A stretch of 64,000 bases of DNA from Pohlia nutans. Its lineage: Eukaryota; Streptophyta; Bryopsida; Bryales; Mniaceae. This document shows positions 23,393-56,923 of the stretch, in pieces. How positions within the stretch are numbered: position 1 is the first letter of the stretch; every line of letters starts with the position of its first letter. Made by a program: the position numbers and the translations under genes. The stretch is from the NCBI GenBank assembly GCA_022496805.1, contig CM040089.1:39168372-39232371 (forward strand). Direction: 5' to 3'. The notes under the pieces are model-generated. The model was not told where the DNA came from, made no database searches, and saw only the letters and a list, made by a program, of their open reading frames with translations.

Positions 23393-24506
23393 CACTACTA
23401 GAAAATCGTGACCAAATCAACAGAAAATCAATTGATTTCTGTTGTTTCGGGCACTGCAATGACCGATTTCACTAATTTTTAAACTTTTTGTAAAAATCAA
23501 CAAATTGTTACCTACTTTCTGTTGATTTGAATAGTGCGATGACCAAATCAACAAAATTTTAGTGAATCTAGAATCTTTTTGAATATTTTTGGAATCTTTT
23601 GAAATCTTGTGGAATATTTTGTAATCCATTGGAATATTTCAGGAATATTTGGAATCTTTTGCAATTTATGGACTCGACTTCGTATGTTTATAAGATTTTG
23701 GAATGTTATTATACCATAGCAGTAGGGCAAGGTTGGTATATTGATGCCAAATAATTAATTAACTCTCGAAACTATGAGTCATAATTTCAAACTATTTTCC
23801 ACTTTTGAGTAAGCCCTTTTTGATACAATATTTGTTGAATACAATTATTGTACAAGATGTGAATTTTTTAATAAACTTGAGTTTCACTATTAAGTTAATA
23901 GAGAAAACCGAATAGAAGAGAGGTTGCAACAAGAGTCAAACATGAGTTTTGGCACTAAAAATATGATCCACTGTCACATATTCTCAGTGAATAGTAACTT
24001 GGTCTCCAATTAAATAGCAAATGAGGGTTGGGGGAACGTGTTTGCAATTGAGGGTCCCGCAGCCAAGACATTGTCAGGTGCTTGTTTTAGAGTATTTAGA
24101 AACTCAACTTAGTCTCAGTTTTGCACATATTCTCTGCTCAACACGAGTTTTGAGTTGAGTTCCTCTTTGAGAGCTTCTTTTCGGTTAACTCTAATGCCTA
24201 GATTTTTTTTGATCAATTCAAGTTGCAATTAAAAAGTTATTTTTCAAAAGGTGATTTTTTTTTTACTTTTGGGTAATTTTGGGCACCCATCACTAATAGA
24301 TCCAATTGGTTTTAAATTCTTTATACAAACTCTAAACAAGATTGTCAACATAATCCCCAAAGTTGAAAAACATCAAAGCACAAAATTGTGACTCTCAAAA
24401 CACTCAAAACATTTAAAACACCCTCATTTGGGCAACATTTAAAACTCCATGGTTGAAGTTCTATGTACTTTGAAAGTTTTTTTAAACTTAATCATTCACA
24501 ATTTAA

Positions 24507-25080
24507 CCCCTAAAGGACCGGGGGGGTATTGAACTTAGCTCTTGTTTTCTTGACTAACTCTTGTAGCAAGCTCAATGCCTTATTAGTGTGGAGTAATTCT
24601 GACGATCAGCACCGTTGAAACTAAAGAAGACTTACATAGCTTTTTTATGAAAGAAATATCAACAAAATCCCACAATCTTTGAGAAATGCCACCGTTGAGA
24701 AGATTGATGGAACTTGTTTGGAGTATTTTGTACATATGCTGAAATCGGATTGTTCAAAAGTGCTCCAAAAATTCTGAAAGTTTTACTGTGAGTAGAAATC
24801 ATCATTTAAAACATGTGAAAAAAAATTCAAGGAATTTGGAGGTGTAAAGAGAAAGATATGACGGTTTGAAGTGACGCCTAGATACCCACCGTGCAACTCA
24901 AAAAAATCACCAAAAATTGCTCACTTGATGAATTTCTGATCAAAAAGTACCTACAAATTTGGCTCTCAAAAAGAGCCAGGGTCTCTTTGTTGCTCATCCT
25001 ACAATTCATAGCCCAAGAACCGGAATTTTCTTACTTTCTAGTTCTAAAAGCCGTATAGGGGCCTTACGATCCTTTAGGGG
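24507..25080. mobile_element. TTAA-family element (574 bp)
   Basis: Left CCCCTAAAGGACCG and inverted right CCCCTAAAGGATCG, each directly abutting TTAA (24503-24506, 25081-25084). Non-coding; nested in the CACTA element. Confidence 0.65.
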
Positions 25081-25461
25081 TTAAAAGAAAAACTCAGCAG
25101 ACTTTGGCGGCCATTTTGTCATAGTAGAATAATTTTTTTTAAATCCTTGAACTAAAAAAACATGGTAAATCAAATGAAGTTACATCTCCAAAAATCCGTT
25201 TGTGATTTTGAGCCTCCATTCAAAAGTTATAGACAAAATTCAGAGTGAGGTAGCAAGGAATATTTTCTTTGATATTTTCAAACACCCTCTCTGAATTTTG
25301 TCTATAACTTTTGTATGGAGGCTTAAAATCACAAACGGATATTTTGACATAAAACTTAACTTGATTTGCCAGCTTTTCTTAGTCCAAAGATTTTAAAAAA
25401 AAGTTATTCTACTATGTCAAAACGGCCGCCAAAGTCTGTTGAGTTTGAAAACACAGAATAG
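25069..25461. repeat. Large imperfect hairpin, arms ~160 bp
   Basis: Left arm with CAGACTTTGGCGGCCATTTT, AATCCGTTTGTGATTTTGAG and TAGACAAAATTCAGAG pairs with a right arm holding the complementary blocks (25280-25445). The loop is short, around 25262-25280. This is a foldback that, if transcribed, would give a long double-stranded RNA. Confidence 0.75.
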
Positions 25462-25464
25462 TAA

Positions 25465-25825
25465 GGGCCGCTTCACACTATGGCCATCCAAGTCGAGAGG
25501 CTGTGGGATTGAGAGTCCAAACTTTGTTGAGAGTCCAAAGAAATCTACTGAAAATAGCCAATAAATATAGTTTCATTTTTTATGAAAAGAAATCGATGGC
25601 CTCTCGACTATAGTGACGGGTCTTGCAAAATGTAGGACCCAAACTTCCTCTCGAGAGGCTGTCACCTTGGTCAAAAAGTGTTGCCATGTAAGCATTTGAA
25701 GGTCCACGGCCTTTGGACTTTGGCCTCTAGTGTGAAGGGTCGAGAGGCCGAAACCATGGTTTCTTGCAATTTGATTGGTGGAAACCGACGGCCTCTCGAC
25801 CTTTGGCCATAGTGTGAAGCGGCCC
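25465..25825. mobile_element. Harbinger/Tourist-like MITE, TAA duplication
   Basis: GGGCCGCTTCACACTATGGC at the left is perfectly matched by the inverted right end (TGGCCATAGTGTGAAGCGGC then CC). TAA flanks both sides (25462-25464 and 25826-25828), the PIF/Harbinger 3-bp target. 361 bp, non-coding, with several internal CTCTCGA repeats. Confidence 0.85.
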
Positions 25826-25865
25826 TAAATGTATATGTAAGAAATAAATCATGCATTGTTCATCA

Positions 25866-26060
25866 AGTTCTAGTGGTGGTGAATTGGTTAGTGAGTAGAG
25901 TCATAAGTATGAGGTCTCGAGTTCAAACCTGAGTGGCAACCGTGTGTATATAGCTTGGCTGCTCGGAAGTACCGGGCATCCAAATAAAAGGAATTTTTGC
26001 CCGAAAAATCCGGGTAGCGAATTTTTTAATTTTTTAATTTTTTAATTTTTTTAATTTTTT
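25866..26060 (+). mobile_element. tRNA-derived SINE
   Basis: A tRNA-like head has a box-A-like GTGGTGAATTGG (about 25874-25885) and, some 35 bp on, box B GAGTTCAAACC (25919-25929) within GGTCTCGAGTTCAAACCTGA. This is followed by an unrelated body (GCTCGGAAGTACCGGGCATC) and a tail of repeated TTTTTTAA. The spacing and box B match plant tRNA-type SINEs, which are transcribed by RNA polymerase III and mobilised by LINE enzymes. Exact ends are uncertain. Confidence 0.7.
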
Positions 26061-26231
26061 ATTTGACCAAATCAACAGAAAAAATCAACAGATTTCTGTT
26101 GATGGATGACTGGAACAACGCGACCGAATCAACAGAAACTATCAACTCTTATTTGTTGATTTGGACGCTGAATTTTCTAGTAGTGAAAGGGGAAGGAGAT
26201 GAAGAGAGAGAAGAGAGATGGGCGGGTCTTT

Positions 26232-26251
26232 GGGTGCGCGGCCGCGCACCC
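26232..26251. repeat. Perfect 20-bp GC palindrome at inner edge of right TIR arm
   Basis: GGGTGCGCGGCCGCGCACCC, identical to 12104-12123. It is preceded by GGCGGGTCTTT, the inverted counterpart of AAAGACCC at the left edge of the satellite. Confidence 0.9.
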
Positions 26252-26777
26252 TAGCAGCTAAAAATAGAAATTTTCAAAAAATATATAAAAAAAAGTTTTA
26301 TTATTATTTTTATTTTATTTTATTTTATTTTTATTTTTATTTTTTTTGGGGGGGGAGGTGGCTCGAGTATAGGGTTCAGATGCATGCCACGGCCAAATTA
26401 TTATTATTATTATTTTTTTCTTTGTGCGTTGCTCCCATTGTTTAGTATTTTGCAGCCACAGCTGAAGAGAAAAGTAGAAGAAAAAAAAAGACAAAAAGGA
26501 AGACAAAAAGGAAGACAAGAGGAAGATAAGAAAGAAGACAAGAAAGAAATCAAGATAAAAAAGAAAAGATAAAAGATAAAAGATAAAAGATAAGATAAGA
26601 TAAAGATAAGAATAAAAAATAATTAAAATAATTATTTGTTTACAATGTAAGTGATTGTAGAAAGACAACATTGATGTTTTTTAGAGAACTTTTTAACCAA
26701 TTTTTTTTAAAGCCAAATATGCTTGTGAAATAAGCGCACTTGGCCAAGTGCATAAATAGCGAATTGCGTGTTCTATA

Positions 26778-28360
26778 CGAATTAAAAACACAACTGAAAC
26801 ATCCAGCAGTACAAAACAACTACTTTGACATAACTATTGTAGTATCTATGGTAGAAATGCTCTAAAACCGAACGCAACCCACCACATTCTACAGTCAAAA
26901 CGCACACAAATATAGACACAAATCAACAAGCCAATAGACCCGCAAAAGCATGTTGTACAAGAGAATACTAATTTGCTACAAAACCATATGAATTTGCACA
27001 CTCTACTCCATACTACTACTAAAAATACTCATGGCTAGGACCAGCAACAAGACTTGATAAAGGTCATTTCCGATGCCTTGAAGAATACATTAAAAAATAT
27101 GATTGCAAAAACAACTTAGTAAATGTACAATGAACCTCGATATAGACAATGAACTATCCATTGACTTTTAGTCCAATCCCGCAATAACCGACTCACAAAA
27201 AACAAGCCTTTTAAAATTTTGTATTGGCCAATACACTAGAAATGCTAGAAAACAACTATTTTTTGGCAGAGCGATTCCCATCAATCACATGTCCCATATG
27301 CAATTCCTTAAATGTAGATTCATAGCTCTATGTACTTCTAAAATGTAACCAACACAACATTCATGCCATTAGAGTTAAAAGACATAACACAAGAAGTACG
27401 GGAATTAAGAAAACTTTAGAATTTTATCATCACAAAAATCAAGTTGCTATATTCTCAGGAATGCATGCACATTTAACAACCCACAAAAAAACAAAATACC
27501 CCCATGGCTTTTTCCTTGCATATGTGGATGACAAAGATGCCACTACAACACCAAATTTACACCCAATATACTATGCGTCAAAGGACTCCTATACCAAAAG
27601 ATCCACCACTAAATTTAAAAAACAACCTCACAATACAATTTATTGAATTTAAATACTATAACGACAGGTTCTTACAAGAAACAATAGATGTTAAATCCAA
27701 AATATCAACAATTGATTAATAGTATTATTAACGATGGTTGGAAAATAGACCCACTCATTTTCATCATTGCGGGCGCGAGGGGAACAACACACAGTCACTT
27801 CTTCAACAAAACACCTTGAAAAAAGTTCAAACTACCCGAAACCTCTATTGAACACACTTTTAAAGAAATAAACACCATTTCTATACACCATGCCATGTTG
27901 ATTATGCAATTACAATACATAAAATAAAAATAGAGAATAACCAACCACTATTAATAGATCAGATTTGAAAATACAAACAAAACAAGTGGTGAAGACCACT
28001 ACACCCTTAAGTTTATCTTCTTTAGTATGAGCCACACTAACTATTTACTCAAACTATTTAGCTATAACTTTTTATGCAAGGCAAATATTTTTACCAAAAT
28101 TGAAGATTTTGGTACTACTCATGTAGAAGAACATCCATACAGTAACACACTTGGTAAAATTATTCATCCTACGTATAAAAATATAGTTATTATTAAATAA
28201 TTAGTGCGTCTTGGAGTAAATAGGATAAGTGGTGTATTAATTCTTGTTAGCTCAATGAACAAAAGACGTAGCTGATTGGTTGATAACTTTTTTTGCCTAT
28301 GATAACTCACTAGCAACACCAAGTCATGTATATCATATTATTGTTTAAACGGAGCCAACG
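26778..28360 (+). mobile_element. Right part of the decayed retroelement (RT-like YVDD relic)
   Basis: Continues the G-poor sequence of 17080-18519. A frame around 27500-27545 reads GFFLAYVDDKDATTT, with the YVDD tetrad of reverse-transcriptase catalytic centres at 27521-27532. Near 28260-28345 a frame reads TKDVADWLITFFAYDNSLAT, resembling the ..AD.L/T.. end of retroelement polyproteins, then a stop. Many frameshifts and stops separate these, so it is long dead. Copia or LINE origin cannot be decided by eye. The YVDD match alone could be chance. Confidence 0.45.
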
Positions 28361-28379
28361 GTAATTGAACTCTTACCAC

Positions 28380-28528
28380 ATAATTATAATTAAAAGTTCT
28401 TCACACAAAAACCCGCTTCGGGTTAAAAGGAGAGAGAAAACAACAACGGGAAAACCCGCGAGATCCATGTGTCAAAGAAGGGCACAAGGCCCAAGAAGCG
28501 AAGCCAAAGAGGCCCGGCAAAAACAAAA

Positions 28529-28560
<32 letters not shown>

Positions 28561-28655
28561 CAAAAAGAACAAAAGGCCCAAAGGCCGTGAAGGAGCCTTG
28601 AAAGCCCGAAGGCCGAAGAGGCCCAAAGATCTTCACCAACCAACCACATAATCTA
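28380..28655. other. GC-rich purine segment with a 30-base G homopolymer
   Basis: Sequence jumps from AT-rich to GC-rich with AAGGCCC/GGGCCTT-type repeats (GGCCCAAGAAG, AGGCCCAAAGGCC) around an uninterrupted run of 30 G at 28527-28556. It borders the dead retroelement and may be its untranslated end or an unrelated insert. Small open frames on both strands here are low-complexity. Confidence 0.6.
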
Positions 28656-28891: not shown

Positions 28892-28937
28892 AATTTGTAC
28901 CATTTTGAGCTATATTTAGAATGTCTTTCCTTTTTAA

Positions 28938-29515
28938 CCCCTAAATGTCACAGCGTCTAGTTTGTGGACGATCAACAGATTCAAACTCATCCTACATTCT
29001 CATCAATGTTTGGATGAAAGTCATTCAATTTTTTTGAGATACTTCACCAAGTTGTTGGCCTATCCAATGGTTGGATTTAGTTATACTTGAGTACAAATTT
29101 TTCTAAAATTACAAATGTAGAAGTATGTCAAGTTGTTAACCAAGCCAAAATTGCATTGACTGTAGTTCAAAAGTGGCCTTGCAAAAATGAGGTCATAGAT
29201 TTAAGGAACACAAAAACTTCAAAGAATCACTACGTTTAAGAGTATCTCATTTCCAATTCATTCCAAAAAAATTTACTCAATTATTTTATTTTATTTTTGT
29301 AATCAAATTTAGAAGAAGTTTTTAATTTTAACTTTCAAAATTTATAATTAAATATTGGTGATAGTATTGGTGAATTGAATCGTACGGATGGAATCTGAAA
29401 TTCAAAATCTAGAACTTTCATTTGTATATCAATTCCAAAATATTCTTCTAAATAGTACTTTATGATGATTTTTTTCAAATCGTCAATTCCAAGGATACCC
29501 TGGTACGTTTAAGGG
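28938..29515. mobile_element. TTAA-family element (578 bp)
   Basis: CCCCTAAATGTCAC left and, inverted, CCCTTAAACGTACC right, each next to TTAA (28934-28937, 29516-29519). Its right half (GGAATCTGAAATTCAAAAT region) is related to the elements at 39159 and 56349, which are of nearly equal length. Confidence 0.65.
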
Positions 29516-29841: not shown

Positions 29842-30387
29842 CCTTTTAACGTCCCATTCCGTTGTAGAACAGTCAAACTACATTTTTATACACAGTTCAG
29901 CTTTTAAGATTTGTTAAAATATATTTTTTAATATTTTTCATGCATGAAAATGTATGTTTCCTATTAGTCCTAAAATTTTCAGATTTTTCTGATACAAAAT
30001 GAACTTTTTACAAATTTTTAGGTCAAATACTTCAAGAAATTCATATTAACTACCAAAAATCTTCAAAAAATATAAAATTTCTAGAACATGTGCAAATGAC
30101 AATGGAGAATCACATGGTATATTTCTGTAGAATTTTTTTACTTTTAATTTTAAAATTCAAAAGGTGAACATCCTATGCAGTGTAATTCAAACCTTGAGCT
30201 ACATAGCTTGCAACAGAAATGAAATATTCAATACTTGAAATTTATAAGATCTGAAAAGTGAAGTGAAAATTAGACTCGATAAACTTCATTTTTTCAATTG
30301 AAAGCTATAGCAAACAATTCATCTTCAAAGTCAAAATTGGCTTTGACCAACAATTATCCACTATTTGGATGCGCGGTCCTTAAAGGG
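29842..30387. mobile_element. TTAA-family element (546 bp)
   Basis: CCTTTTAACGTCCC left and, inverted, CCCTTTAAGGACCG right, adjacent to TTAA at 29838-29841 and 30388-30391. Interior AT-rich, non-coding. Confidence 0.55.
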
Positions 30388-31133
30388 TTAAGAAAATATA
30401 CGCAATTTGTGAAGAAACTACGTAGCTTGCTGGGTTTTGATAGTTCATCATGCCTCTTTTTTTTTTCTGATCCCAGGTTGGTAGAAACTCGTAGATGCAA
30501 TGGCATTGTTACATTTTGAATCAAACTTTTGAACACGCAAAGCATAAACATAGGCCACTTTCTTCTCTTCAATTTTTTATTTTTTCATCTATTATACAAT
30601 ACTATGTATCCCATTCCAAAGTTTCACTAGAAAGTAAACAATTTGGGTCTTGCAACAAGAAGGGTTCTGAAAATAAAAGCTGCTGTATCTGGACACACGA
30701 AGAGACAATAATAATATCAATTTTACAAACTACCAATAGCATGATTTCAAACTAAGAAAACTCTGAATATCAAGAAACAATGTCCAATTCAAACGTTCGA
30801 AATAGAGTATTTTCAACATAACATTCATAACATACTAAAAATCATTGAAAGTAAATTAATCCATAGATTATAATTTAGATAATTAGAAACTTCTTGAGTC
30901 CATTATTAATTCCAAAGGGACCAAGGATTTGTAGTTTTAAAATGAAAAATTCAATCAATCATGTTACAAAAATAATAATTCAGATAGGGTCATATTTTAT
31001 ATCACTAGAATAAGTGAAGAACATTACATGTGTTGATAATTTTTTTAAAAAGAAGCCTACGTAAGACCTAATCAAAACTACTAAAAAAACACATGAGGCC
31101 CAATTCATCTCTGGACCAGACAAAGGTCCTTAA
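30388..31133. other. AT-rich DNA related to 42970-43180
   Basis: No gene. About 30910-31110 shares blocks (GTTTTAAAATGA, TTTTATATC, GTGAAGAACATT.CATGTGTT) with 42975-43160, so it is an additional, more decayed TTAA-family fragment whose left end is no longer clear. Confidence 0.45.
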
Positions 31134-31379
31134 ACCTTAAAGGACATATGCTTTTCTCATTCCATACCCAAAATCTCATTTAAACTCCATTTTAAGCATG
31201 ATTTCCTTTCTAATTTACTTCGATTCTATTTTTAAGAAGTATAGATCCATCAAAGGTGCTCAGTTTGACATTTAAAAAAACGCCATTTGATACAACGGAA
31301 TAGAAGTTATGAGCAAGATTCTCCAAAAATTCTCCCAAAATACTATTAAGTTTGTGGGACTTGCTAAGTCCTGTAAGGG
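31134..31379. mobile_element. TTAA-family element, subtype shared with 37086-37319
   Basis: ACCTTAAAGGACATATG left and GTAAGGG right, bounded by TTAA at 31130-31133 and 31380-31383. Nearly its whole 246 bp aligns, inverted, with 37086-37319; shared text includes CCATTTTAAGCATGAT, TTTCTAATTTACTT and CATTTGATACAAC. Independent copies with the same TTAA edges confirm the boundaries. Confidence 0.8.
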
Positions 31380-31383
31380 TTAA

Positions 31384-32109
31384 CCCTTAAACACGCCTAG
31401 TCCAAAAATTGGCTTATGAATGGAACTGACTATTCAATTCCAACTGCTACGTCAATGATTTCTATCTTATACTTTTTGTAAAGGATTTTGCTTGGTCATA
31501 CCACCCCTTTAAGTTAAATTCAGATCATTCAAGCTATTTTTAGATTTACATGGGTTCCCAACTACAAAAAGAGTTGTAAAAACGGTTCGCCGTATAATGT
31601 ATTTTGGATTTTTCTGCTTTTTCTACTTAAACTAAATTTAGGCCATGAAAATGAGTTCTATTGCATTTGAGCTTTACTCACAAAATGAAGTTTGCCAAAT
31701 CTAGTTTCTACTCTACTTTGAGTTTTTGATTGTTTAAAAAATTGAGTGTTTTATTGCAGTTACAAGTTGAGTAGGTATTACCATGGTGTAGCAAAAAAAT
31801 CTAAATTTAGATTAACAAATGATTTTCATTAACTAAACTTTTTTCCACTGTAATTTACACCTTTGGTAAACAAATCCGAATTTCTTTAGAACATTTGCAA
31901 TTGATATGAATTTTTTTTACAATCGCTTCAAAATATCATAGTAATTGCAAATTTTCACCAAAATTTATGAAAAAATCATAATTTGTAGTAGACACGTGGC
32001 TTCATCTACTAAAAAAATATAAAGTTGAATTTTTGTATTATTTATAGTGGCAAAATTGAGTGTAACAGATAAAATAGGATTCCATGGTCATAGGTCCGAC
32101 CTTTAGGGG
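31384..32109. mobile_element. TTAA-family element abutting the previous one
   Basis: CCCTTAAACACGCC left and, inverted, CCCCTAAAGGTCGG right; TTAA at 31380-31383, shared with the preceding element, and 32110-32113. 726 bp, non-coding. Confidence 0.55.
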
Positions 32110-33625: not shown

Positions 33626-34460
33626 CCCCTAACTGTCCTGATGTTCATATTTTGAATGTTTTTTGGGTTGCTTTCACCTTTGAAGAGCTATAACTTTTGC
33701 ATACAATGTCTGATTTCAATGAAATTTTCCAAAACCCCCTTTCCCCTTATATTGTCTAGTTTTTGTGGTAAAAATTTCAAATCGATCTAAGATGTAATGA
33801 ATTTTTGGGAATCATTCTAGTACATGGGTCTTAATTTTGGACAATTTTGTGCATTTTGATGGCTGCAACTTCAGGAGTTTGTTCCTCCTTCGTCCAATGT
33901 CCGTTTTCAATAAACATTGTTGGGTTAGATTTTCCCTAAAGTCTAGTTATCATGGTAAAATTTTCATATCAATCCAAGTTTTTCTAAATTTTTGGGAGCC
34001 ATTTTAGTGCCCGGGTTTATTTTGAATACATTTTTGCTTTTTGGGTCAAATGGGTCACTTTTTGAGCTACTTTTGACATTACAAGGCCATTTTAGGGCAC
34101 ATCAATTTATTTCATGAGTACTTTTTGGTACCAATATGTTTATATGATGATTTTTAACCACTTTATCGAGCACTTTATAGTTTAAAGTTTTTCATTTGAG
34201 TAGGTTTAGAAATCAAATTTCACCTCTAATGTGTTGCTAGGAAATTTTCAGCATCCTATTTCAACACTAAAACATTTTGATCTTGCAACAATGTGGCCAA
34301 ATGAATCCAAATTTGATCCACATCCTTGGGTCCACATCATCTACAGCATGTATACTACAAGATTGTACGGTTGAAATTTCTAAACCTCACTTACATTTAG
34401 ACCTATAACACATCAAAAGCAATGATGTTTTTAAGCCCAAAAAACTAGGGATGCTTAGGG
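33626..34460. mobile_element. Probable TTAA-family element (weak left end)
   Basis: Right end GCTTAGGGG followed by TTAA (34461-34464). The best left partner is CCCCTAACTGTCC at 33626, preceded by TTTAT rather than TTAA. Interior non-coding. Confidence 0.35.
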
Positions 34461-34839
34461 GTTAATGCTCACTTCGACAAGTCTACTTACTGTAAAAAAT
34501 TGAGGCTAAGTGCATACTCGGCCATGACTCAATTCTTTCGGTTTACAACATAATTTTAAGGCCATCACTCACTTATAACTCTTTTGTTTCAAGGATGGTA
34601 CCACAATGACAATGCTCTCATCCAATAACAAGGTACCACTTGTGGCTTTGGGTTGGAACCCAAGTTTTTTTGGTATAAATAGGCCCTAAATATTATTGAT
34701 AGGCTCTAGAAAATGGTGTTTATAGTAGGGCAATAAATCTATGATTAATGGCTTAAAGTAAACAATAGAATTCTCAAAATAATGAAAAGATAGTTGTAAA
34801 AATGACCCTCAAACATAGAAAAAATTGCATGTTATTTAA

Positions 34840-35187
34840 CCCTTAAACGTCAAGAGGGCCTGGGCGAGGCAGCCCGGAATGCATCTAAATTTTCGGAGGG
34901 AAAAAAAAAAAAAAAAAAAAAAAAGGCTCTGCTGGGCACTGTTGGCCAGCACTGTAGCACTGCTGAACCTTAGCTGCCCCAACCTCAAAACCTGTTCAAT
35001 TTGATAACTTTGATTGCTTACCAACGATTTCACAATCTCTCAAATGAGGCGCAAATTTGGAATCTAGATCGTTTTTTCAATAGCTTTCCAACGCACCAAT
35101 CCTCGCTTGATTTGGTTGAAAAAAACTACTTTTTTCTCAAATATTCCTTTCTGAAAAGGCCCGTGGGGCTTTTTTGACGTTTAAGGG
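34840..35187. mobile_element. TTAA-family element, subtype A (348 bp)
   Basis: CCCTTAAACGTCAA begins both ends in inverted orientation, flanked by TTAA at 34836-34839 and 35188-35191. It matches the element at 50750-51025 in reverse orientation over its whole length at high identity, including AATTTTCGGAGGGAAAAAA and TTCCTTTCTGAAAAGGCCCG. This copy has roughly 70 extra internal bases. The close match implies recent movement. Confidence 0.9.
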
Positions 35188-35274: not shown

Positions 35275-36008
35275 GAGTGTTTTCACAGTACGGGTGTCAT
35301 AGATTTGAACAAAAACAATTTGTAATGTTGTAAAGCAGTTGATTTAATGATGTAACATAATAAAAAGGGAAAATACAAAAAATATTTTAATATAGTAATA
35401 AATAATATTTTGGAATATTTTCAAACTATTTTATATTATTTTGGGATATTTTTATTATTTTTATAATATTTGGAATATTCCCAGTGATGTCATTTTATCT
35501 GTTTGCAAACCATGTCGAATGCATATTCCAACCACAGCACAGGCTCCGTTTTATTTAGCCAACTAAGCTCGCAAGGAAGTTTATGAAAACTTGCCATTTT
35601 ATAGGACGTTTAATGTAAAGGAACAAAAATTGCCGCCATAAACTTCTAATATCCACTTTGCTCACAAAATCGTTTTGGAATCATTTTTGAATACAATACC
35701 TTTGTATTGTAGGAATTGAGGAAAAATATTGCCATCTCTATATTTTCAATGAAACGTATCAATTAAGGCATTAGCATATTTATACTACAACATCATCTAA
35801 CGCAATGCATTATACTTTGGTCTAAATACTATTTTATATTATTTTGGAAATTTTTAATATACATACGGTCATAAAATACCTTTTCATTGTGCTTAGCTTT
35901 TTGCCAAAAAACCAATTTTAACAACCACTAGAAAATGTTTACCGCCAAATATTGCTTGTTATGCAATGTTACATTACACATTTTGGATGCCCTACTGTAA
36001 AAACACCC
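35275..36008. mobile_element. GGGTGTTTT-family TIR element, copy 1
   Basis: Left GAGTGTTTTCACAGTACGGG and, inverted, right GGGTGTTTTTACAGTAGGGC. Interior blocks (TATCAATTAAGGC, AAATACCTTTTC, AATGTTTACCGCCAAA) recur in 41823-42347. Non-coding. Confidence 0.65.
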
Positions 36009-37085: not shown

Positions 37086-37319
37086 CCCTCAAATGACTTT
37101 GGAAGCCCGACGGGCTTGATAGTATTTTGGAAGAATCTTGCTCATAATTTCTACTATGTTGTATCAAATGAGGGTTTTTGAATGTCAAACCAAGCAGCTT
37201 TGAGGGATCTATATATTTTTAGAATAAAACCAAAGTAAATTAGAAAGAACATCATGCTTAAAATGGAATTTAAAAGTGATTTTGGGTGTGAAATCAAGAA
37301 AACATGTGTCCTTTAAGGG
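37086..37319. mobile_element. TTAA-family element, same subtype as 31134-31379
   Basis: CCCTCAAATGAC left and, inverted, CCCTTAAAGGACAC right, TTAA at 37082-37085 and 37320-37323. Aligns end to end, inverted, with 31134-31379. Confidence 0.8.
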
Positions 37320-38024: not shown

Positions 38025-38648
38025 GGTAACTATATTTTAAAAGGAGCATTTACTGTAAAGCGTTTGTATCTATTGCAATGTGTCATTTCAGCCATGAAAT
38101 GCCACATAGCAGTTAATACAAACGCTTTATGATAAATGCTCCCTTTAACTCTTAAACGTCCACGCTACATTTACTCGGTCAAACCTCATCAATTTCTCAC
38201 ATTTTAAAATGTATTATATTTTTTTGTTATTTTTCTCATATAATTGTTTTTTTAAACCAAATTTTCACCAATATTTTCATAATTATTTAAATGAAAATGA
38301 ATTTTATAATATTTTCAAAGTTTTTCTCTTGTAATAGCCATAGTAATTACAAAAATGTTTAAAATAGTATGAAAATTTTAGGAAAAATGATAATAATACG
38401 ATTGAAGAACATTTTGTGCAGTGTATATTGGAATTTTAAGGCTATGAGCTTTAAAGTGTTGTAAAAATTGCAATTTTAACAATTTTGAAGAACTTTAAAT
38501 TGGACTAGAAAATAGAAGATAGCTCCCACACTTTTTTAATTGAAATCGTTTTCATTAGAAATTAAGAACTAGGTGTAATGAACGTTTGATGATCTAACAT
38601 GGGCCCAATGGGTTCATTGCACGTTTAAGGATTAAGGTATAGTTACCT
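38025..38648. mobile_element. GGTAACTATA MITE split by a TTAA-family element
   Basis: Left GGTAACTATATTTTAAAAGG and, inverted, right GGTAACTATACC. Inside, the AGGAGCATTTA...AAGCGTTTGTAT arm pairs with ATACAAACGCTTTATGATAA and AATGCTCCCTTTAA. Removing 38149-38631 and one TTAA restores a continuous foldback whose right arm matches its left arm, and it also matches the related copy at 39005-39155. Confidence 0.8.
38149..38631. mobile_element. TTAA-family element with a reconstructable empty site
   Basis: CTCTTAAACGTCCA left and, inverted, TCCTTAAACGTGCA right, flanked by TTAA at 38145-38148 and 38632-38635. It lies inside a MITE whose arm is otherwise continuous (GCTCCCTTTAA then GGTATAGTTACC), so the pre-insertion sequence held a single TTAA. 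That directly shows a 4-bp TTAA target duplication. Confidence 0.85.
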
Positions 38649-39004
38649 TATCTAATTGATCAAAGTTGTTCACAATGTAGCCAAGTGTCTTTAATGCAGA
38701 GAGCAGACGCTAACGAAGAATTCACCATCACGTCTCTGCCCCAATGACTGGAAATGACTGACTGACTGATGGCTACTCAACACCTGCCACTTGGCTCACA
38801 ACCCGAGAAAATGATTCTTGGTGGTACTGGACACGTGTCCTCCGTTCACAGGAAAAAAAAACAGCCCGGCAAAGAATAGTTTCCAGACGTTAATTCATAA
38901 AGTAACCACAGACCTGCATTACATTATTGAAGCCCTAGACTTTCTACCCCTACAAAAGATTGCTTAAGAAGATTCTTTTCGATGCTCTTGGATACTGTTT
39001 TCTT

Positions 39005-39155
39005 AAACTATACCTTAAAGGGAGCATTTACCTTAAAGCGTGTGTATTTGTTGCATTGTGACATTTCTCGTGACAATTTATTGTAGTGAGCATTTATTTT
39101 AAAGGTTGAAATGTCACATTGCTGTAGATATGCACTCTTTAAGGTATAGTTACCT
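39005..39155. mobile_element. GGTAACTATA MITE, second copy
   Basis: ACTATACCTTAAAGGGAGCA left, TTTAAGGTATAGTTACC right, with the ACCTTAAAGCGTGTGTAT internal arm. About 150 bp. A TTAA-family element begins immediately after it. Confidence 0.6.
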
Positions 39156-39158
39156 TAA

Positions 39159-39729
39159 CCCCGAAACGCCAAAGCATTCATTTTCTCGATGATATACAAA
39201 ATCAAACTCCGTTTTCTCATTTGTCATGAACTTTTTGCAATGTGGATTTTTACTATAGATTTTATGGGAAGTTGGCTTCATGCATGTGTGATTCGATTAG
39301 GAAGGGGATGATTTGTGAAAATTTTATGTCTCATTTCATGTTGCAATGATTCACCAAAAAATTCTAAGATCTTAGTTTAATTTTAAGTGCTCTTGAAAAA
39401 ACCAACTCATAAAATTAAGCAACCAATTTTTTTTGAAAAATCATTGCACTTAGAGTATGACATTTCAACCCATCACAACAAATTTCATTCACAGATTGTC
39501 AATATCTTATTCGTGATCAAATTAAAAATGAATTTTGAATTTTAAGTTTCAAATTTTATACAAAATTATTGGTGATTGCAATCATAAATCTAACCATACG
39601 GGTAGAATCTAAAATTCATAATGTACAACTTTTAGTCTTACATCAAGTTCATAATATCCCTCTTAGTTGCATTTTATAATGCATCGTTGCAATTCTTCAA
39701 ATATGGAGAGGGTTGAGAACAATTAGGGA
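39159..39729. mobile_element. TTAA-family element, 571-bp subtype
   Basis: CCCCGAAACGCCAAAG left and, inverted, TCCCTAATTGTTCTC right, TTAA at 39155-39158 and 39730-39733. Same length and shared interior (TCACCAAAAAATT, TTCAAATTTTA.ACAAAAT, GTTGCATTTTATA.TGCATC) as 56349-56919. Confidence 0.7.
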
Positions 39730-39955
39730 TTAAGTAAGTTTTCTTTGTTTGATTCTTACCAAATTCCCTCATACAATGCCAAATGTCTTCTCTCACCAGA
39801 GTTCCAAGAAAAATTATTGTATCTGAAAATTCAATCCAAGTAGTAGGGAGTTTGGAACTCCATTGTAATATAATGTTATGTGGCTTGGGACGGCTTCGCA
39901 CTTTTTTTACCTCTGCAATTGAATAGTGTTCAATTTGTGTAAAAAATAAAGTTAA

Positions 39956-40492
39956 CCCTTTGAGGCGCCTGCGTTCACATAGTGGACGTAGAACAGATTC
40001 AAACTGTTCGAATTTCATCCAAATTGGACAAGTTTCATCCACCAAAATTTCTCGTGATTCTTGTGCAACTTGACTATTCTTTGTACAATTTGGATCTTCA
40101 AAATAGATTATTATGATTTTTGGAAAAACAATACAAGTGGTTTATGTCAAATTTCATTCGTGTTCAAAAAGTGAGACCTTAAAGATGATTTTCCAAAATA
40201 AGTAGAATCAAATAATGGAAACCATACCATCTCGTAGTAAATGTTACTCCAATTTCATTACAATTTTTTTTTTAAATTCCGTTAATTCATGATTTTTAAT
40301 TGATTTTCAAGAGAAAACCTTTCAAAATTAATTAAAAATTATTAAAGAAATATATGATAAATCCAACTGTACAGATGTGATCTTCACATTGACATTTACA
40401 ACTTTTCTTTGTACATCAACTCTATTTTTGGTTTTCATCAAAAAAATTATAACAAATCTTTGAAAACAATGTTGAACTGGGACGTTAAAGGG
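39956..40492. mobile_element. TTAA-family element, ~540-bp subtype
   Basis: CCCTTTGAGGCGCCTGCGTT left and, inverted, CCCTTTAACGTCCC right, TTAA at 39952-39955 and 40493-40496. Matches 52937-53476 in reverse orientation over its length. Small open frames here are not coding. Confidence 0.8.
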
Positions 40493-41822: not shown

Positions 41823-42347
41823 GGTGTTTTTGCAATAGGGATGTCTTATTCATGAACAAAAAATCTTCCACTATTTAACAATTGATTTAAAGACATAGTA
41901 CAGTAAATAGGAAAAATATCCAAATATTTAAAACAATAGAAATGGAATATTTGTAGAACCTTTCAACTCATTTTATGTTATTTTGGAATATTTTGGAATA
42001 TACTTAGATTTTTTTGAGTACTATATCTTTATATAATAGGAATTGATAGGGAAAAATTGTCATTACCATATCTTCAATGAAACATATCAATTAAGGCGTT
42101 AACGTACTTATTGTGCAGTGTGACGGGAGGCAATACGTCACATTTTGATCCAATTACAATTTTATATGATTTTCAAAAAAAATTATATACATAAAATCCT
42201 AAAATACCTTTTCACTGTTGTTAACATTTTTACCGAAAAATCAAGTTTAGTGACCAATACAAAATGTTTACCGCCAAAATGTCATTGTTGTGCAATGTGT
42301 CACTACACATTTTACACATTTTAGTACGCCCTGCCATGAAAACACCC
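41823..42347. mobile_element. GGGTGTTTT-family TIR element, copy 2
   Basis: Left GGTGTTTTTGCAATAGGG and, inverted, right GGGTGTTTTCATGGCAGGGC; interior related to 35275-36008. Confidence 0.65.
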
Positions 42348-43200
42348 GTGACCTAGGTTGTTCTAGAATGTTTACCTGTGTTTCTTTAGCAAGTAATGGA
42401 TCATTTCCCATAAAATAAAACATTCTTTACCTAAAAACATAAATACAAATTTATGTTTGGATTCCAGATTCCATGTTACAATTATAGATAATCATTGGTC
42501 TAATGTCAAAATTTATGAGCAATTTGTCCAAAAGACATTGGTACCTTACAACTTGGATGTCAGTAGTGGAAAGAATGAATCTACTCGAAAATCAAAAAAT
42601 GGTTTGAATCACTGATTTTTGGTCGTTACACAAATATGAGGTTTTTTATTTTCATAGATGAAAGAAGAGTTTCCTTTTATTTGTGTACTCCTTGTTCCTT
42701 TTTTTAATTTTAATTTTCACAAGTGATCTTTTTATTAATCACTGCAAAATGGGTACAACGACCATGCGCAAAGCCGGTTTCTTCTCTGGCAATTGTTTTG
42801 AATTCATTGAATAGAAGCTATCCTAATACTCCTCTATCCTATAATAAGTTTCCTCAACCCTCAAAATAGAAGAATTAACTAGTCCAATGGTGTGGACCTT
42901 GAGCACAACAATGCGGACCCTGAGTGAGTTGGAATAGTACTTTTGAGCAAACATGAAACTTATAACTATTAACCTTTAAAGGACTAAGGACTCATGATTT
43001 TAAAATGACAAATTTAAACAATCATATTATGAAAAATATAATGCAAATGGGACCAAGTTTTATATCTCCGGAATCAGTGAAGAACATTGCATGTGTTGAT
43101 CAAAAAAACAAACAAATTTGAACAAAAGAAATTCTACATAAGATCTACTCAAAACTACTAAAAAATACAAGAGGCCGTCAGGAGGCCTTTTAGGGGCCTT
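42348..43200. other. AT-rich DNA with one-ended TTAA-family relic
   Basis: CCTTTAAAGGACTAAGG follows TTAA at 42969-42972 and the next 200 bp match 30910-31110, but no right terminus is clear. ACTCCTCTATCCTATAATAAG near 42830 resembles a decayed mariner-type MITE end. Confidence 0.45.
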
Positions 43201-45910: not shown

Positions 45911-46264
45911 GGTAAGGACACCCATTCCCGTGACTGCACCCATTCCCGTCTGCATACAGGGCACCTCAATCCGAGAAACTCTGATCTTGGGTGGTTGAAG
46001 AAATTTGCTATTGTAAGGAACTTTTCATGGCAGAAGTTGCTTCTCCAAGTCACGGAATCAAGTGCATTCAAACACAATCAAAATGTGCAAATCATTTTTT
46101 GGCTTTGACTATCGAGAACGTACACAATTTCTACAATAACATGATTTTGTCGATGCAATCTAGATTAATATCTAATTGCCTTTCCCTTGATATAATTACC
46201 TTACAAACTGCTCATTCAGAAGTATAATAATCTGCTTAAAGTCACGGGAATGGGTGTCCCTACC
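45911..46264. mobile_element. 354-bp TIR element with ~9-bp duplication
   Basis: Left GGTAAGGACACCCATTCCCG and, inverted, right GGTAGGGACACCCATTCCCG, extended by TGACT on both sides. Flanks TTAAGTTAA (45902-45910) and TTAAGTTAG (46265-46273) agree at 8 of 9 positions, the length typical of Mutator-like elements. An 78-codon frame inside is not recognised. Confidence 0.7.
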
Positions 46265-49059: not shown

Positions 49060-49731
49060 CCCCTAAATGCCCATAGGTTTTCTTAAGATGCTAGATGTGT
49101 TATAATGTCCATCTTACTCAACTTTTATGAGCTACAATTTTTAAATACATGTCAAGCACAACAATAAGACAACATCCGTATGGTTAAATTTTGAAAAATG
49201 CTATGAAATTTTTAATAATCAATTTATAAGAATTATCTTTGAGAATTCATTAAAAATACATATTTAGTCATTTTCACTTGGAATGAAGTATGATAGGTCA
49301 AAAACATTGATTTTATATGGTGGTTAACTTGTTCAAGTTAGAGCTAATATTATTTGATTAAAAACCTAAAGATTCCATTCCAGGTAGATTTTCAAAATTG
49401 TGACAATTTGAGATGCTCTCACTTCGAGGGCTTTAGAGGAAAATCAATAAAAAATTTCAAATTTCCTTTTCTAGAAAAGTTGTTCAAGAGATAATATTGT
49501 TAGTTTCTCTAAATAGCAAATTCATAACACTAAAACAATATTGAGGTCTTTGCCTTTGAAAAATTCTCCTCGGTGGAGTTTAACTCGGATTAACATGATT
49601 CAAATCGGGTTGGAAAGTAGACTTGAATTTCCTATTTGAAAATAAAAAATAAAAAATAAAAAATAAAATCATCATGGGCAGCCCATAAAAAAGGGCAGCG
49701 ATCATAAAATGGTCATTCGGTCACTTAGGGA
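49060..49731. mobile_element. TTAA-family element (672 bp)
   Basis: CCCCTAAATGCCC left and, inverted, TCCCTAAGTGACC right, TTAA at 49056-49059 and 49732-49735. A related end, TCCCTAAATGTG, follows TTAA at 48891. Interior AT-rich with a small AAAAT microsatellite near 49645. Confidence 0.6.
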
Positions 49732-49735
49732 TTAA

Positions 49736-50749: not shown

Positions 50750-51025
50750 CCCTTAAACGTCAAAAAAGCCCCACGGGCCTTTTCAGAAAGGAATATTCGA
50801 GAAAAAAGTAGTTTCTCTCAACCAAATCAAGGGAGGATTAGTGCATTGGAAAGCTACTGAAAAAGCGATCTAGATTCCAAATTTGAGGTTGGAACAGCTG
50901 AGGTTCAGCAGTGCTACAGTGCCCAGCAGAGCCGTTTTTGCATTTTTTTCGTTTTTTTTTTTTTCCCTCCGAAAATTTAGATGCCTTCTGGGTTGCCCCG
51001 CCCAGGCCCTCTTGACGTTTAAGGG
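50750..51025. mobile_element. TTAA-family element, subtype A (276 bp)
   Basis: CCCTTAAACGTCAA at both ends in inverted orientation, TTAA at 50746-50749 and 51026-51029. Reverse-complement match of 34840-35187 with one internal length difference of about 70 bp. Confidence 0.9.
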
Positions 51026-51818
51026 TTAAAGAGCAATTTGAGTGATTTATGTGAGGGACTTCTTTCATCAAAACTCTTGAACTCAAGATGTCAAAGAATG
51101 TTATATCAAAGAACGATGTCAAAATCTTGGATATGTTGATTCTTCCTGAATTAAGAAATGGGTTCAAGGTGCAGGTTATCTTTCAAAAATGCTATGCTAA
51201 CTTAACTCTTTGATTCCCTAACATCCATTTTATGGATATTGGATGATTTTTGAGGCATCTCTTCACAAAATACAAAAATATAAAGATTTTTTCATTCATT
51301 CGAAGTTTTCTTGGTTCTTGTGCTAGTTGACTACTATTTGTATGTATCTTCTAAATAAGATATTGTGATTTTAATTTTTTTTAAATACAAAATTTGGTTC
51401 AAAAAGTGAGATCTTAAAAATGATTTTCCAAATTAAGTAGAATCAAAGAATGGAAATTATATCATCTCAAAATGCATATTATTCCAAATTCAATACAACA
51501 ATTTTTAACAAGCAATCTCTGCGTCAACTAGAGAAAAATGACTGATTTTGATGGTTCCAACAAACCTGGTTGAATTCGGAAATTGAAAATCCAAAGTAGA
51601 TATCTATGTGCATAATTGGATTATATACATGATTAGAAAGTGCAAGCAGTTTGGAATAAAATGAAAGTTCCATTTTATTCATCAATATAGCCCTCGAAAG
51701 TTAAGCACATTATAAAGTCGGTCATGCCTCAAAAGCTGAGTTTAGGCCCAATCATGTCAGGCCAATGACTCAATTCAATGCAAATTGGAACCTCATTTCA
51801 TCTTTGCATCACATTTAA
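51026..51818. other. AT-rich DNA with a partial TTAA-family copy
   Basis: About 51204-51510 resembles, inverted, one half of the element at 52937-53476 (GGTTCAAAAAGTGAGATCTT, AAGTAGAATCAAA.AATGGAAA). It starts after TTAA and looks truncated. No gene. Confidence 0.45.
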
Positions 51819-52424
51819 CCCTTTCAAGACCAAAACGAAACAACTCCAATACTCATTATTTTTCAAAAATTCATAGAAAATTCAAAAAGTCTTTGAAAAT
51901 TTTGAAAATTTCAGGGAAGATGAATAATATGATGAAGAATCACCGAATAAAATCATTAGGAAATTATTATTTTTGTAGATTGTATGGCTTGCTGAATGTT
52001 GGGTCTAGTTGAGGAATAGACGGAGCGATTGTGAAAGGGGTGTTTTCATGGTAGGATGAAGATTTTGCACGAAAGGCAAACGTACGTTATGTAAAACACT
52101 TGCCATTATTGTGTCATTATTTATATTCAATAATTATGGAAAATGTTTAAATATATTTAAAATGGAATCTTTTTCATAGTATTTGGATTATTCCTATAAT
52201 ATTCTAGAATTTTTTTGAACCTCTTTACACATCTAAGGCGTAACAACGCATCTTTTGTACCATGTTTCTATCAAAAGTTTTCCATATTCCTATAATTTAT
52301 ATTTCAAGAATTGTTTTTATTTGCATTTTTATGACCACCATAATTTACAGACTGAAAATAAAAACGACAACCCAACCTATAACTACATAATTTGGTCGTC
52401 CTATCGCGAAAACACCCTTTAGGG
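51819..52424. mobile_element. Possible TTAA-family element
   Basis: CCCTTTCAAGACC after TTAA (51815-51818) and CCCTTTAGGG before TTAA (52425-52428). It contains the better-defined GGGTGTTTT element at 52038-52417, whose end lies only 7 bp from the right TTAA, so this pairing could be fortuitous. Confidence 0.35.
52038..52417. mobile_element. GGGTGTTTT-family TIR element, copy 3
   Basis: Left GGGTGTTTTCATGGTAGGA and, inverted, right GGGTGTTTTCGCGATAGGA. 380 bp, non-coding, related ends to 35275 and 41823. Confidence 0.7.
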
Positions 52425-52428
52425 TTAA

Positions 52429-52932
52429 TCCTTAAACTCCCATGTGCACCAAAGTGTCTATTTCCATATCTCATTAATTCTCAAAGGCATGATTACTGCG
52501 GTAAATTCTAGGTCCTATGGGCCTGACCTAATGAACTCTCACCAAAAATATCTCATGATCAACTGATCAAATTAGGGTTCTGTAAGTTGCTACGAGTTCC
52601 ACGGATGCTTGGCAATGCCAAGCAACAGTTTTGTTCAAGTTCATTTGGATTCAATATGTCAAAAGCCACCCATCAAGCCTAGGCATAAAGCTCTCTCTGG
52701 TTGGCTCAAAGATTGCTTGTTAATTAAAAAATGTTAATTTTTTATTTTTAATTGAATTTCAAAAGAAAACCTTGATAAATTAATTACAAAATATGATAAA
52801 TCCAACCCCTATAAATGTGATCTCCTCATTGATATTTATAACTTTTATTTGTATATCAACTCCAATTTTGTGATTCATCAAACATTTTATTACACATCTT
52901 TGAAATTGGTGCATCATTTGGACCTCAAAGGT
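52429..52932. mobile_element. Probable TTAA-family element in a chain
   Basis: TCCTTAAACTCCCATG left and, inverted, ACCTTTGAGGTCC right; TTAA at 52425-52428 and 52933-52936, both shared with neighbours. Its right half resembles part of 39956-40492. Confidence 0.5.
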
Positions 52933-52936
52933 TTAA

Positions 52937-53476
52937 CCCTTTAACGTCCCGATTCATCACTGATTTCAAAGATCCGTTATAAAATGTTTGATGAATACCA
53001 AAAATGGAGTTGATGTACAAAGCAAAGTTGTAAATGTCAATGTTTAGATCACATCTGTATGGTTGGATTTATCATATTTTTTAGTAATTTTTTAAAATTA
53101 ATTTTTCAAGGTTTTCTTTTGAAATTCAATTAAAAATCCCAAAGTAACACAAAAAAATTAAAAATTGTTGTAATGAATTTGAAATAACATGCACTACGAG
53201 ATGGTATGCTTTCCGTTATTTGATTCTACTTATTTTGGAAAATCATGCTGAAGGTCTCACTTTTTGAACTAAGAATGAAACTTGACATCAACCACTATTG
53301 TTATTTTTCAAAAAATCACAATATCTTATTTTGAAGATCCATACCGTACAAATGGTAGTCAACTAGCACAAGAACCAAAGAAAATTTGGATGGATGAAAA
53401 ATTGTACAGGATGTAGTAAAGAGAAGGATTTCAATCTGTTTGTCGTCCATTATATGGACGCAGGCGCGTTAAAGGG
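52937..53476. mobile_element. TTAA-family element, ~540-bp subtype
   Basis: CCCTTTAACGTCCC left and, inverted, CCCTTTAACGCGCCTGCG right, TTAA at 52933-52936 and 53477-53480. Inverted full-length match to 39956-40492. Confidence 0.8.
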
Positions 53477-53480
53477 TTAA

Positions 53481-54434
53481 AAATTTCTTTTTTAGAGTGA
53501 CGGTGATAAGTTGAGAGCAAGAAAAAAAACACAACTAGTTCAACTCTCTGGGACAGGTAGTTGTGGTCAAATGAGCATGAATCATATTTCAAAACTCCTA
53601 GAGCAAAATAATGTCAATCATCAAAGATGGTGACCGCATATCCTAGTTGTGATATATGTAAAATCAAAGTAAAGAATTAAAATTATTATTATCTTAGTTT
53701 ACACATAGTAGGAAAATCTTGGGGAAGTCACTATCAAAAATTTAGATAACAATGAGAGGAAAAATATAGGGTGTCATTTATTCATTTGAGATAAAATTTA
53801 TAAATTTTTAGAAGTAATATAGGGTGTTTCAAAACCAATTTGAAAATATTCTTAGAATATATCATGAATATACCCTAAATATACTATAAATATTATATAT
53901 TCCATTATTTCATAGCCCCTCATTAAATACCTTGTGTTCGCTCCTGTGTCCCAAAATTCACACTAAGAGACTTCCCCAAGAGGAAATTTTAAAACTAACA
54001 TAATGGAATGAGCGAATAATACAACCAGTAATACAATAAAGGAACACTTCTTACATTTTTAGATGTTTTACTTGGTAAAGAAATTATTGATAAAATCCAT
54101 GTTTTTGTAATTAGTAGTAAAAATAATAATTCAAATTAATTCAATTATTCGTTCTCTTTGTGAACTCCATAAATCAAGCACAAAATTATCTTTATTTCAT
54201 GCTTAATTTCATACTTTAACTCGTAACGTTGATACAACCCAACCAAAAATTGTATGAAAATTTTGCATAATGCAATTTTATTTCCAATACATCATTAGTT
54301 GTGAGAAAAATACACAAATCTTCTGCTTAAAATATAAATTTGTCAATTGACCAATATTAATAATCTCATAAACTACATACAAGTATTTATTTGGCTTTCT
54401 AGTAATTTGATTCTTAAAATTATTATCAATGGAC
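53481..54434. other. AT-rich interval, nothing recognised
   Basis: No gene, RNA or bounded repeat seen. Confidence 0.5.
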
Positions 54435-54532
54435 CTCTGTCCGGTGGGCACTGGCTCATTGTCAAGACGAACAGACACTTTATTCACGCCGGCCTCGAAA
54501 GAGGACTGGAGTTCATATCTATCTATCTATCT
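54435..54532 (+). repeat. Retroelement 3'-end-like repeat, copy 2
   Basis: CTCATTGTCAAGACGAACAG, CACTTTATTCACGCCGGCCT and GAAAGAGGACTGGAGTT then a TATCTATCTATCTATC tail; matches 28798-28891. The better-kept CpG sites suggest it is the younger copy. Confidence 0.6.
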
Positions 54533-55938
54533 TCTTAAAATTACCTACTTTGAATTCTACAATTTATGCCAGTATAAAAGCAAGAAAATAAAAATAAAAA
54601 TCGTATTGAATTCTGTGGCAAGGAATAATAAAAATGTTGTTAATGTTTCCTTCATAGATATTCAACATATTATTATCATTTTTTCATGATTAAATCTACT
54701 AGAATCTTTCGGCCGGTGAAAAAAATCTAATTTTATTCACAATATAAAATCATACAATATTGAAATTCTCAAAACTATTTGTAATGCAAAAGGATTCATA
54801 ACTTTCAAAATTCATTTAAGCTATTTATAGTCTAAAAAGATATAAAAATATTCATGATGCAAAAAGATGAAAATATAATGCATATAAATTTTATACTAAA
54901 CTTGTCAAAATTTTTTTTTGTAACAATAGAATACACGGATGTAATTTGGTTAATTTTTTATTAAGAAATAATTGGATTAAGTCAGGGCCTATTATCCTCC
55001 ACAAACAATTAGCACCTGTGGCACAAATGAACACTAGTAAATTAGAAATAAAGTGATATGCCATATTAGCAAGATAACTTTGACATAAAATAGTACTTTA
55101 ATTTTGAGGTGTCATGTGTGACAATCCAATTGGTTAAGATCAAATGATCTATTACAAAAGTTAGTCATAATTTTGGAATTGAACTTACAATTCGTTCACA
55201 TAATTTTCATTAATTTAAAATTATTTAATTTAATAAAGATTTTCAAACTCCAATTCTATGAATGTTTAACATTCAAAGGGATCACGCCGGTAGTGTTTTT
55301 TAAGTAACTTCAATTCAAAGAATTTATAGTGCAAAAGTGTTTCAAATAAATGTAAAATCTCTATTATCAACTCTTTGTATTGAAACCTCAAATAGTAATT
55401 TATTGTTTCTCATACAAATTGGATTAGAATATCAATAACTTATTATTTATATTAAAGTTTACATAGACTCTACATATTTGACATTTGGATTTTGAAAGAT
55501 ACATAATTCATTGATTCAAAGAATCTCTATCCATAAAATTTGTTACATTGTGAAGCCCTAGACGTTGTACGCCTACTAAAGTTTCCAAGACTCTCTCCAG
55601 TGCTCATGAATACTCTTTGTTTTCACATTTTAAGTTTGTTACATTTTTCACTTGTTTGACTCCTACTAAATTCCCTCATATAATGGCAAGTGTCATCTTT
55701 CACTCTAATTCCAAGGAAAATTACTGTATGAGTTAAAATCAAACCAAGCAGTCAAGGGTGCAGAACCCTACTATTATAGAATGTAATGCTAAAGCATCTA
55801 TGTAAATGAAACTAAATTCATATTATTACTAAAGCGCTGTAAACTTTGATATCATAAATCCCACGGTTTAGTAGCAATAGGGCTCAATGAACATAATATA
55901 ACACATAAACCCTCCACAATATCAACTTGAGGATACTA
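54533..55938. other. AT-rich interval, nothing recognised
   Basis: Very AT-rich; no gene or element boundary could be supported. Confidence 0.5.
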
Positions 55939-56097
55939 CACTGAAATCACCATATACATTGATCCATTTGCGCAAATTCTCATACGTTTGAATTTTTTTT
56001 CAGGTTTGCATGAATTTTACCACAATATTTTACAAAAATAATTATTCAGAAAGCCTCTCGTAAATATCGTGGGCCACAATATATGGTGATTTCAGTG
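55939..56097. mobile_element. 159-bp TIR MITE
   Basis: CACTGAAATCACCATATA left and its exact inverted copy TATATGGTGATTTCAGTG right. Non-coding. The CACTG terminus suggests a CACTA relative, but the 3-bp flanks do not match. Confidence 0.65.
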
Positions 56098-56348
56098 TGG
56101 TCCTTTAGCCCTTGCAACGGTTCACCTTTTTGCTCCCACTACATGAAAGAAAAAAGATTCAAAACATGTGATTCTTGATACAAGGCTGTAGTGGACTTCC
56201 AACTCTCCACTATCATTCTTTAGGTAAAGAATTACGTGGCATGTCCAATTTTCCAAAATCCACGACAACAATTCTCGTACAATGATTCTTATTCCTAGGT
56301 ACATCTTACAAGGGCTAAAGAACCTTATGCAACCCATTCACACCTTAA

Positions 56349-56919
56349 CCTCTAATTGCCCAACCGACCATTTTTTAAACGATGTATAGATTTCATCCAT
56401 GTTTTTTTCATCCGTCATGCACATGTTGCAAGCAAAAAAAAAATACTACAAAAAGCTATGGCAAGATAGCTTCATGCATCTCTGATCTGATTAAAATGGG
56501 TATGATCTGTGACAATTATATGCCTCATTTCAGATTGCAGTGATTCACCGAAAATTTCAAAGATTTTAGTCTAAACGTGCTCTTGAAAAATTAAACTCAT
56601 AAATTAAGCAACCAAAAAATTTCCAAAAATCACTACACTGAGAGTATTACATTTCAGTTCATCACAACAAAATTCATCTACTTATTATCAATATCTTATT
56701 CGTAATCAAATTACAAAAGCATTTTGAATTTCAAGTTTCAAATTTTACACAAAATATTGATGATAGCAATCACATATCTAATCGTATGGATGGAATCTAA
56801 AATTCAGAATGTATGACTTTTATTCATTCATTGAGTTCAAAATATTCCTTCGAGTTGCATTTTATAGTGCATCTTTGCAAAAACTGCCGAATTTGGAGAG
56901 GAGTGAGGACGTTTACCGG
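56349..56919. mobile_element. TTAA-family element, 571-bp subtype
   Basis: CCTCTAATTGCCC left and ACGTTTACCGG right, TTAA at 56345-56348 and 56920-56923. Related along its length to 39159-39729. It is the last repeat before the GC-rich gene region. Confidence 0.65.
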
Positions 56920-56923
56920 TTAA

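Follow-up and report, generated by a model that had tools for sequence, protein, structure and literature searches.

What kind of transposon left the crowd of short repeats, ended by CCC and bounded by TTAA, that fills part of a 64,000-nucleotide stretch of DNA (the window, with positions counted from its first letter)? An inverted-end scan beside TTAA, together with direct reading of the flanks, gave 15 such CCC elements of 234-726 bp each between positions 24507 and 56919. Their lengths sum to 7508 bp, or 23% of the interval 24503-56923. TTAA immediately adjoins both sides in 15/15 elements, which had been picked for TTAA flanks. The original prediction of at least a dozen TTAA-bounded, CCC-ended inverted elements of 234-726 bp was thus borne out, with the same length range. 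As judged from the sequence, the DNA is from a moss and the elements are probably long-inactive, non-autonomous cut-and-paste members of the piggyBac superfamily, resembling miniature inverted-repeat transposable elements (MITEs).

The 30 ends of the 15 elements yield the inverted-end consensus CCCTTAAACGTCC. C occupies profile positions 1, 2 and 3 in 26, 29 and 27 of the 30 ends, and G occupies position 10 in 29. Over the first 13 bases, at least 9 positions are identical between the left and right ends of 11/15 elements, and just 7, 6, 5 and 8 positions in the elements starting at 31384, 39159, 51819 and 56349, respectively. When each end was scored against a leave-one-out profile, 28/30 ends scored above 8, with the right ends of 51819 and 39159 lowest (5.0 and 5.7). 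The elements have the properties of MITEs, being short (234-726 bp), non-coding, inverted at their ends and present in several copies (four end-to-end pairs, copy number being judged within the window). The published hallmark of piggyBac is a terminal inverted repeat (TIR) of 12-19 bp with CC[C/T]T plus a TTAA duplication (PMC10175614, PMC2872659), and CCCTT is given as the most conserved TIR motif of animal piggyBacs (PMC10813416). The 30-end consensus agrees with this TIR rule, and the 4-bp TTAA duplication of the superfamily was found in 15/15 elements. The elements would have been mobilised by a piggyBac transposase whose gene lies, or once lay, in another part of the genome: it would have bound the CCCTTAAACGTCC-type ends, cut the element out at TTAA and inserted it at another TTAA, thereby duplicating the 4 bp.

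The ends were also compared with 14 published coral TIRs, of which two reach 12/13 matches to a CCC end, two 11/13 and the other ten 8-10/13. Among 5000 shuffles keeping the first three bases, any TIR reached 12 in 32 and two or more did so in 1; in a smaller test with seven coral TIRs, any reached 12 in 0.45% of shuffles. The closest published TIRs are those of AmiPB2 from the coral Acropora millepora, a piggyBac-like transposon (2352 bp, 543-aa transposase) with the ends CCCTTTAACGCCC and CCCTTTATGGACC (PMC2872659). Its left end CCCTTTAACGCCC is matched at 12/13 by three CCC-element ends, and its right end CCCTTTATGGACC at 12/13 by one, the right end (30387) of the element 29842-30387, whose left end matches the AmiPB2 left end at 11/13. 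The TTAA duplication is a further likeness, stated in the AmiPB2 paper as a superfamily rule (PMC2872659), whereas AmiPB2 differs in encoding a transposase, in its 2352-bp length and in its coral host, and the comparison with the moss elements is restricted to TIRs. The piggyBac-derived MITEs of Acropora (CMITEs) are likewise short, TTAA-flanked and CCC-ended, can adjoin one another and show nested TTAA insertion (PMC2872659). CMITEs are ~100 bp long, with a conserved core and arrays of similar copies (PMC2872659), while the moss elements measure 234-726 bp, fall into several subfamilies and are mutually dissimilar where they abut.

Four pairs of elements align end to end, as had been predicted from the sequence. 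The closest (94% identity in aligned columns, as for all pairs here) joins 34840-35187 (348 bp, + strand) and 50750-51025 (276 bp, - strand), in each of which the two ends agree at 13/13. At 86% identity, 39956-40492 (537 bp, +, ends agreeing at 9/13) pairs with 52937-53476 (540 bp, -, 11/13). The pair at 83% consists of 31134-31379 (246 bp, +, left end ACCTTAAAGGACA) and 37086-37319 (234 bp, -), both with end agreement of 10/13. The last, at 79%, consists of 39159-39729 and 56349-56919 (both +, 571 bp each with refined boundaries), the latter between TTAA 56345-56348 and TTAA 56920-56923. The copies lie in opposite orientation in 3/4 pairs. Twelve further pairs, completing the best 16 of 105, show 72-78% identity in aligned columns and are heavily gapped, with 0.56-0.64 identity over alignment length. 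The maximum in a shuffle control was 0.56, obtained in a single orientation whereas the real comparison took the better of two; because this maximum reaches the 0.56-0.64 range, the weakest of the 12 relations are marginal. The CCC elements comprise several diverged subfamilies. Since the four closest pairs diverge by 6-21% in aligned columns and several ends have decayed, the data suggest that the activity of these elements ended long ago.

The remaining seven elements lie outside these four pairs, and only one of them, 28938-29515 (578 bp, +, end agreement 9/13), was assigned a strand; it shares 74-76% identity in aligned columns with the 571-bp pair. The element 24507-25080 (574 bp, 12/13) lies between TTAA 24503-24506 and TTAA 25081-25084, and a few bases past the latter is an imperfect 357-bp palindrome (25090-25446, 82%). 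The element 29842-30387 (546 bp, 10/13) is a distant relative of 38149-38631 (483 bp, 10/13), which is of CCC type with ends CTCTTAAACGTCC and TCCTTAAACGTGC and adjoins a GGTA-type palindromic element. The longest, 31384-32109 (726 bp), has ends that agree mutually at 7/13 and each fit the profile. The set is completed by 49060-49731 (672 bp, 10/13) and by 51819-52424 (606 bp; ends CCCTTTCAAGACCA and CCCTAAAGGGTGTT, mutually only 5/13), which is nested in an element with CAAGC ends. Several candidates were excluded from the count. A possible 836-bp element at 33626-34461 has the left flank TTAT and not TTAA; the relics at ~16663-16902 and ~42973-43192 have one profile-matching end each, and that at ~30904-31129 has none. 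The 354-bp element 45911-46264 was set aside because its inverted ends, GGTARGGACACCCATTCCCGTGACT, seem to run on beyond TTAA. Also left out was the ~200-bp insertion 35478-35683, found in one repeat copy when compared with 41824-42347, the edges of which are without TTAA.

Neighbouring elements and unfilled sites bear on insertion at TTAA. Abutting elements have one common TTAA at 31379/31384 (TTAA 31380-31383) and at 52932/52937 (TTAA 52933-52936), and GGTA-type palindromes adjoin the CCC elements 38149 and 39159 with one common TTAA each. These palindromes, with GGTAACTATA-type ends, lie at ~38026-38144, with CTAA as left outer flank, and at 39007-39154, between TTAA 39003-39006 and TTAA 39155-39158, with a left end without GGTA; no strand was assigned to the latter. 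At 55543-55788 (+) lies a paralogous unfilled site of the 39003-39733 insertion, whose flanks align there and converge on the single junction TTAA 55630-55633. The second site is a relic of the 39956/52937 subtype, split into 51286-51508 (+, aligning to 40033-40271 and 53158-53401) and 52724-52932 (+, sharing its TTAA with the 52937 element) by a TTAA-flanked element at 51509-52719 (1211 bp, strand unassigned). When its two parts are rejoined at TTAA, the relic aligns continuously across the junction with the 53-kb copy, which, like the 40-kb copy, is uninterrupted. The interrupting element has the inverted ends CAAGCAATCTCTG (CAAGC), a second end type using TTAA.

A number of results weigh against assignment to piggyBac. 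The alignment at 55543-55788 is gapped around TTAA, and the CCC element is not isolated at this site because the insertion at 39003-39733 comprises two abutting elements, the GGTA-type palindrome and the 571-bp CCC element; the other unfilled site belongs to the element with CAAGC ends. The relic demonstrates TTAA insertion for the CAAGC-ended element and not for the CCC family, and the two paralogous sites support TTAA insertion with neither isolating a lone CCC element. A strict CC[C/T]T start occurs in only 17/30 single ends, with C at position 4 in 9/30. The TIR likeness spans 13 bp and comes solely from coral TIRs of one paper (PMC2872659), 10/14 of which match CCC ends at only 8-10/13. 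A Pfam scan of 72 of the 134 window open reading frames (ORFs) of at least 70 aa gave no transposase, with weak matches only (best E 0.0087). The 134 were counted outside a heptamer array; the other 62 lie beyond 56.9 kb, in the gene region (52), and in repeat-rich parts at 11-12, 18 and 26 kb (10), and ORFs shorter than 70 aa fell outside the scan. Within it, one scan covering 69 ORFs returned no transposase family. Querying proteins with a piggyBac-like sequence was uninformative on mosses because, in the best 120 of 3711 matches, the 7 rows with an organism name were all from animals. As the scanned ORFs of the window yielded no transposase, we infer superfamily membership and do not regard it as proved. 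The predicted reading of TTAA plus CCC ends as the piggyBac hallmark is upheld by the published rule and by the 12/13 AmiPB2 matches; it is weakened by the 17/30 strict ends and the unseen transposase.

Among other explanations, chance coincidence of TTAA and CCC in AT-rich DNA would account for the weak right ends of 51819 and 39159, with their low leave-one-out scores. A flank-blind scan for CCCYTWAASGWC, a motif derived after the ends had been seen, gave 61 matches (at least 10/12), and 30/61 directly follow TTAA. In ten random sequences generated with the dinucleotide frequencies of the window, the motif matched 22-41 times, 0-3 of them after TTAA; this control additionally required a C in one of the first two bases, which one real match lacks. 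Scored with the 13-base profile, 38 ends next to TTAA exceed 6, namely the 30 members from which it was built and 8 others without clear partner (34461, 36665, 42973, 16902, 52429, 52932, 48895 and 36583). In 40 random sequences such ends averaged 0.9 per sequence and numbered at most 4. A motif-free count of inverted-end pairs (at least 11/13) is weaker support than these tests: TTAA ranked top of all tetramers with 12 pairs (ATAT 8, AATT 7), and just 4/12 were CCC elements, the rest being satellite, GGTA-type, CAAGC-type or other. Given the controls, the end-to-end copies with identical boundaries and the unfilled paralogs, chance was rejected and its probability is negligible. It is also highly improbable that Tourist (PIF/Harbinger, 3-bp TAA/TTA) or Stowaway (Tc1/mariner, TA) MITEs were misread as TTAA insertions. 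Both are well-known plant MITE groups with TAA/TTA and TA duplications (PMC10004981), and TA, TTA and TAA all lie within TTAA; the moss elements resemble them in short length, inverted ends and plant host, and differ in that neither the 3-bp nor the 2-bp duplication was found. TTAA stands on both sides in all 15 elements (chosen for it), and T precedes TAA in 30/30 flank-blind matches that follow TAA, which argues against duplications of TA, TAA or TTA, and these were rejected. A TTA or TAA duplication, moreover, has no symmetrical placement around CCC...GGG. Outside TTAA, at most 2 bases match in the 15 elements, so no longer duplication is hidden there, and one of the hAT or Mutator type was rejected.

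The CCC elements might instead be non-autonomous members of another TTAA-specific superfamily, Kolobok or Sola3, which we consider unlikely. Sola3 likewise uses TTAA. Kolobok shares the TTAA duplication and has 5'-RR and YY-3' termini (PMC9587614), and the GGTA-type palindromes nearby carry RR-type ends near TTAA, the GGTAACTATA-type ends being of the RR type published for Kolobok (PMC9587614); a second TTAA system may therefore be present. The CCC elements are like Kolobok in their TTAA duplication and unlike it in their termini: 0/30 ends begin with two purines, position 2 being C in 29 and T in 1, and Kolobok was rejected on this ground. Also conceivable is a TTAA-targeting plant lineage with a transposase outside the described superfamilies and convergent CCC ends, a reading consistent with the CCC ends being linked to no transposase among the window ORFs scanned. 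Against it, ends of the CCC elements match both ends of AmiPB2, whose transposase is known, at 12/13, and no feature demands a new enzyme. We regard this as very unlikely, and give the same low probability to the proposal that a land-plant TTAA transposase other than piggyBac, Kolobok and Sola moved the CCC elements, with the GGTA- and CAAGC-ended neighbours in the same system.

The piggyBac reading has its interest from the host. A multi-exon Myb-type gene lies at 59520-63832 (59.5-64 kb) and is presumably TRFL-like. The best database relative of its product is a Ceratodon purpureus protein (66% of the query aligned, 68% identity); another Ceratodon protein ranks next, ahead of Physcomitrium, Sphagnum and Marchantia proteins. 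By tblastn, eight segments of the closest Ceratodon protein were found in the window at 65-96% identity each. Because this gene is closest to Ceratodon proteins, the window is, on sequence evidence, plant nuclear DNA of a moss, in agreement with the plant genome assumed in the original prediction. Ceratodon belongs to the dicranid mosses; going by this single gene, the host is a relative of Ceratodon and probably a different moss. That prediction also called piggyBac rare or undocumented in land plants. Rarity agrees with a 2025 paper describing piggyBac as occasional in plants, with red algae as its example (PMC12732532). The statement as a whole is partly right. Plants are named among piggyBac hosts without detail (PMC10813416, PMC10140906, PMC10794571), a review counts PiggyBac as one of the MITE superfamilies of angiosperms (PMC10004981), and a table of fern repeats gives 1230 copies under PiggyBac (PMC6890710). 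No moss piggyBac element was described among the literature matches listed, which consisted of titles and abstract starts and mostly did not cover subscription papers. The kind of element is known, and its documentation in such a host is sparse; the superfamily is known mainly from animals, fungi and protists, the red algae being one recent paper's plant example (PMC12732532). If the assignment to piggyBac is correct, this dense, old population of several subfamilies (23% of 32 kb) would mean that mosses once hosted substantial piggyBac activity, and would raise the questions of when piggyBac entered mosses and whether a working or domesticated transposase persists.

Other repeats occupy the window. 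A 4.25-kb tandem array at 19050-23301 consists of ~608 copies of the 7-bp unit CTCCCGT with 95% matches, and yields long open frames on both strands. Tandem repeats of ~60 bp are found at 3800-5832, 7500-7900 and 9100-9280, many units having a palindromic GGTTAGGCATATGCCTAACC-like core. A further family of repeats, with pyrimidine- or purine-rich tracts, has four copies, at 11024-11435, 12124-12530, 18513-18855 and 26398-26778.

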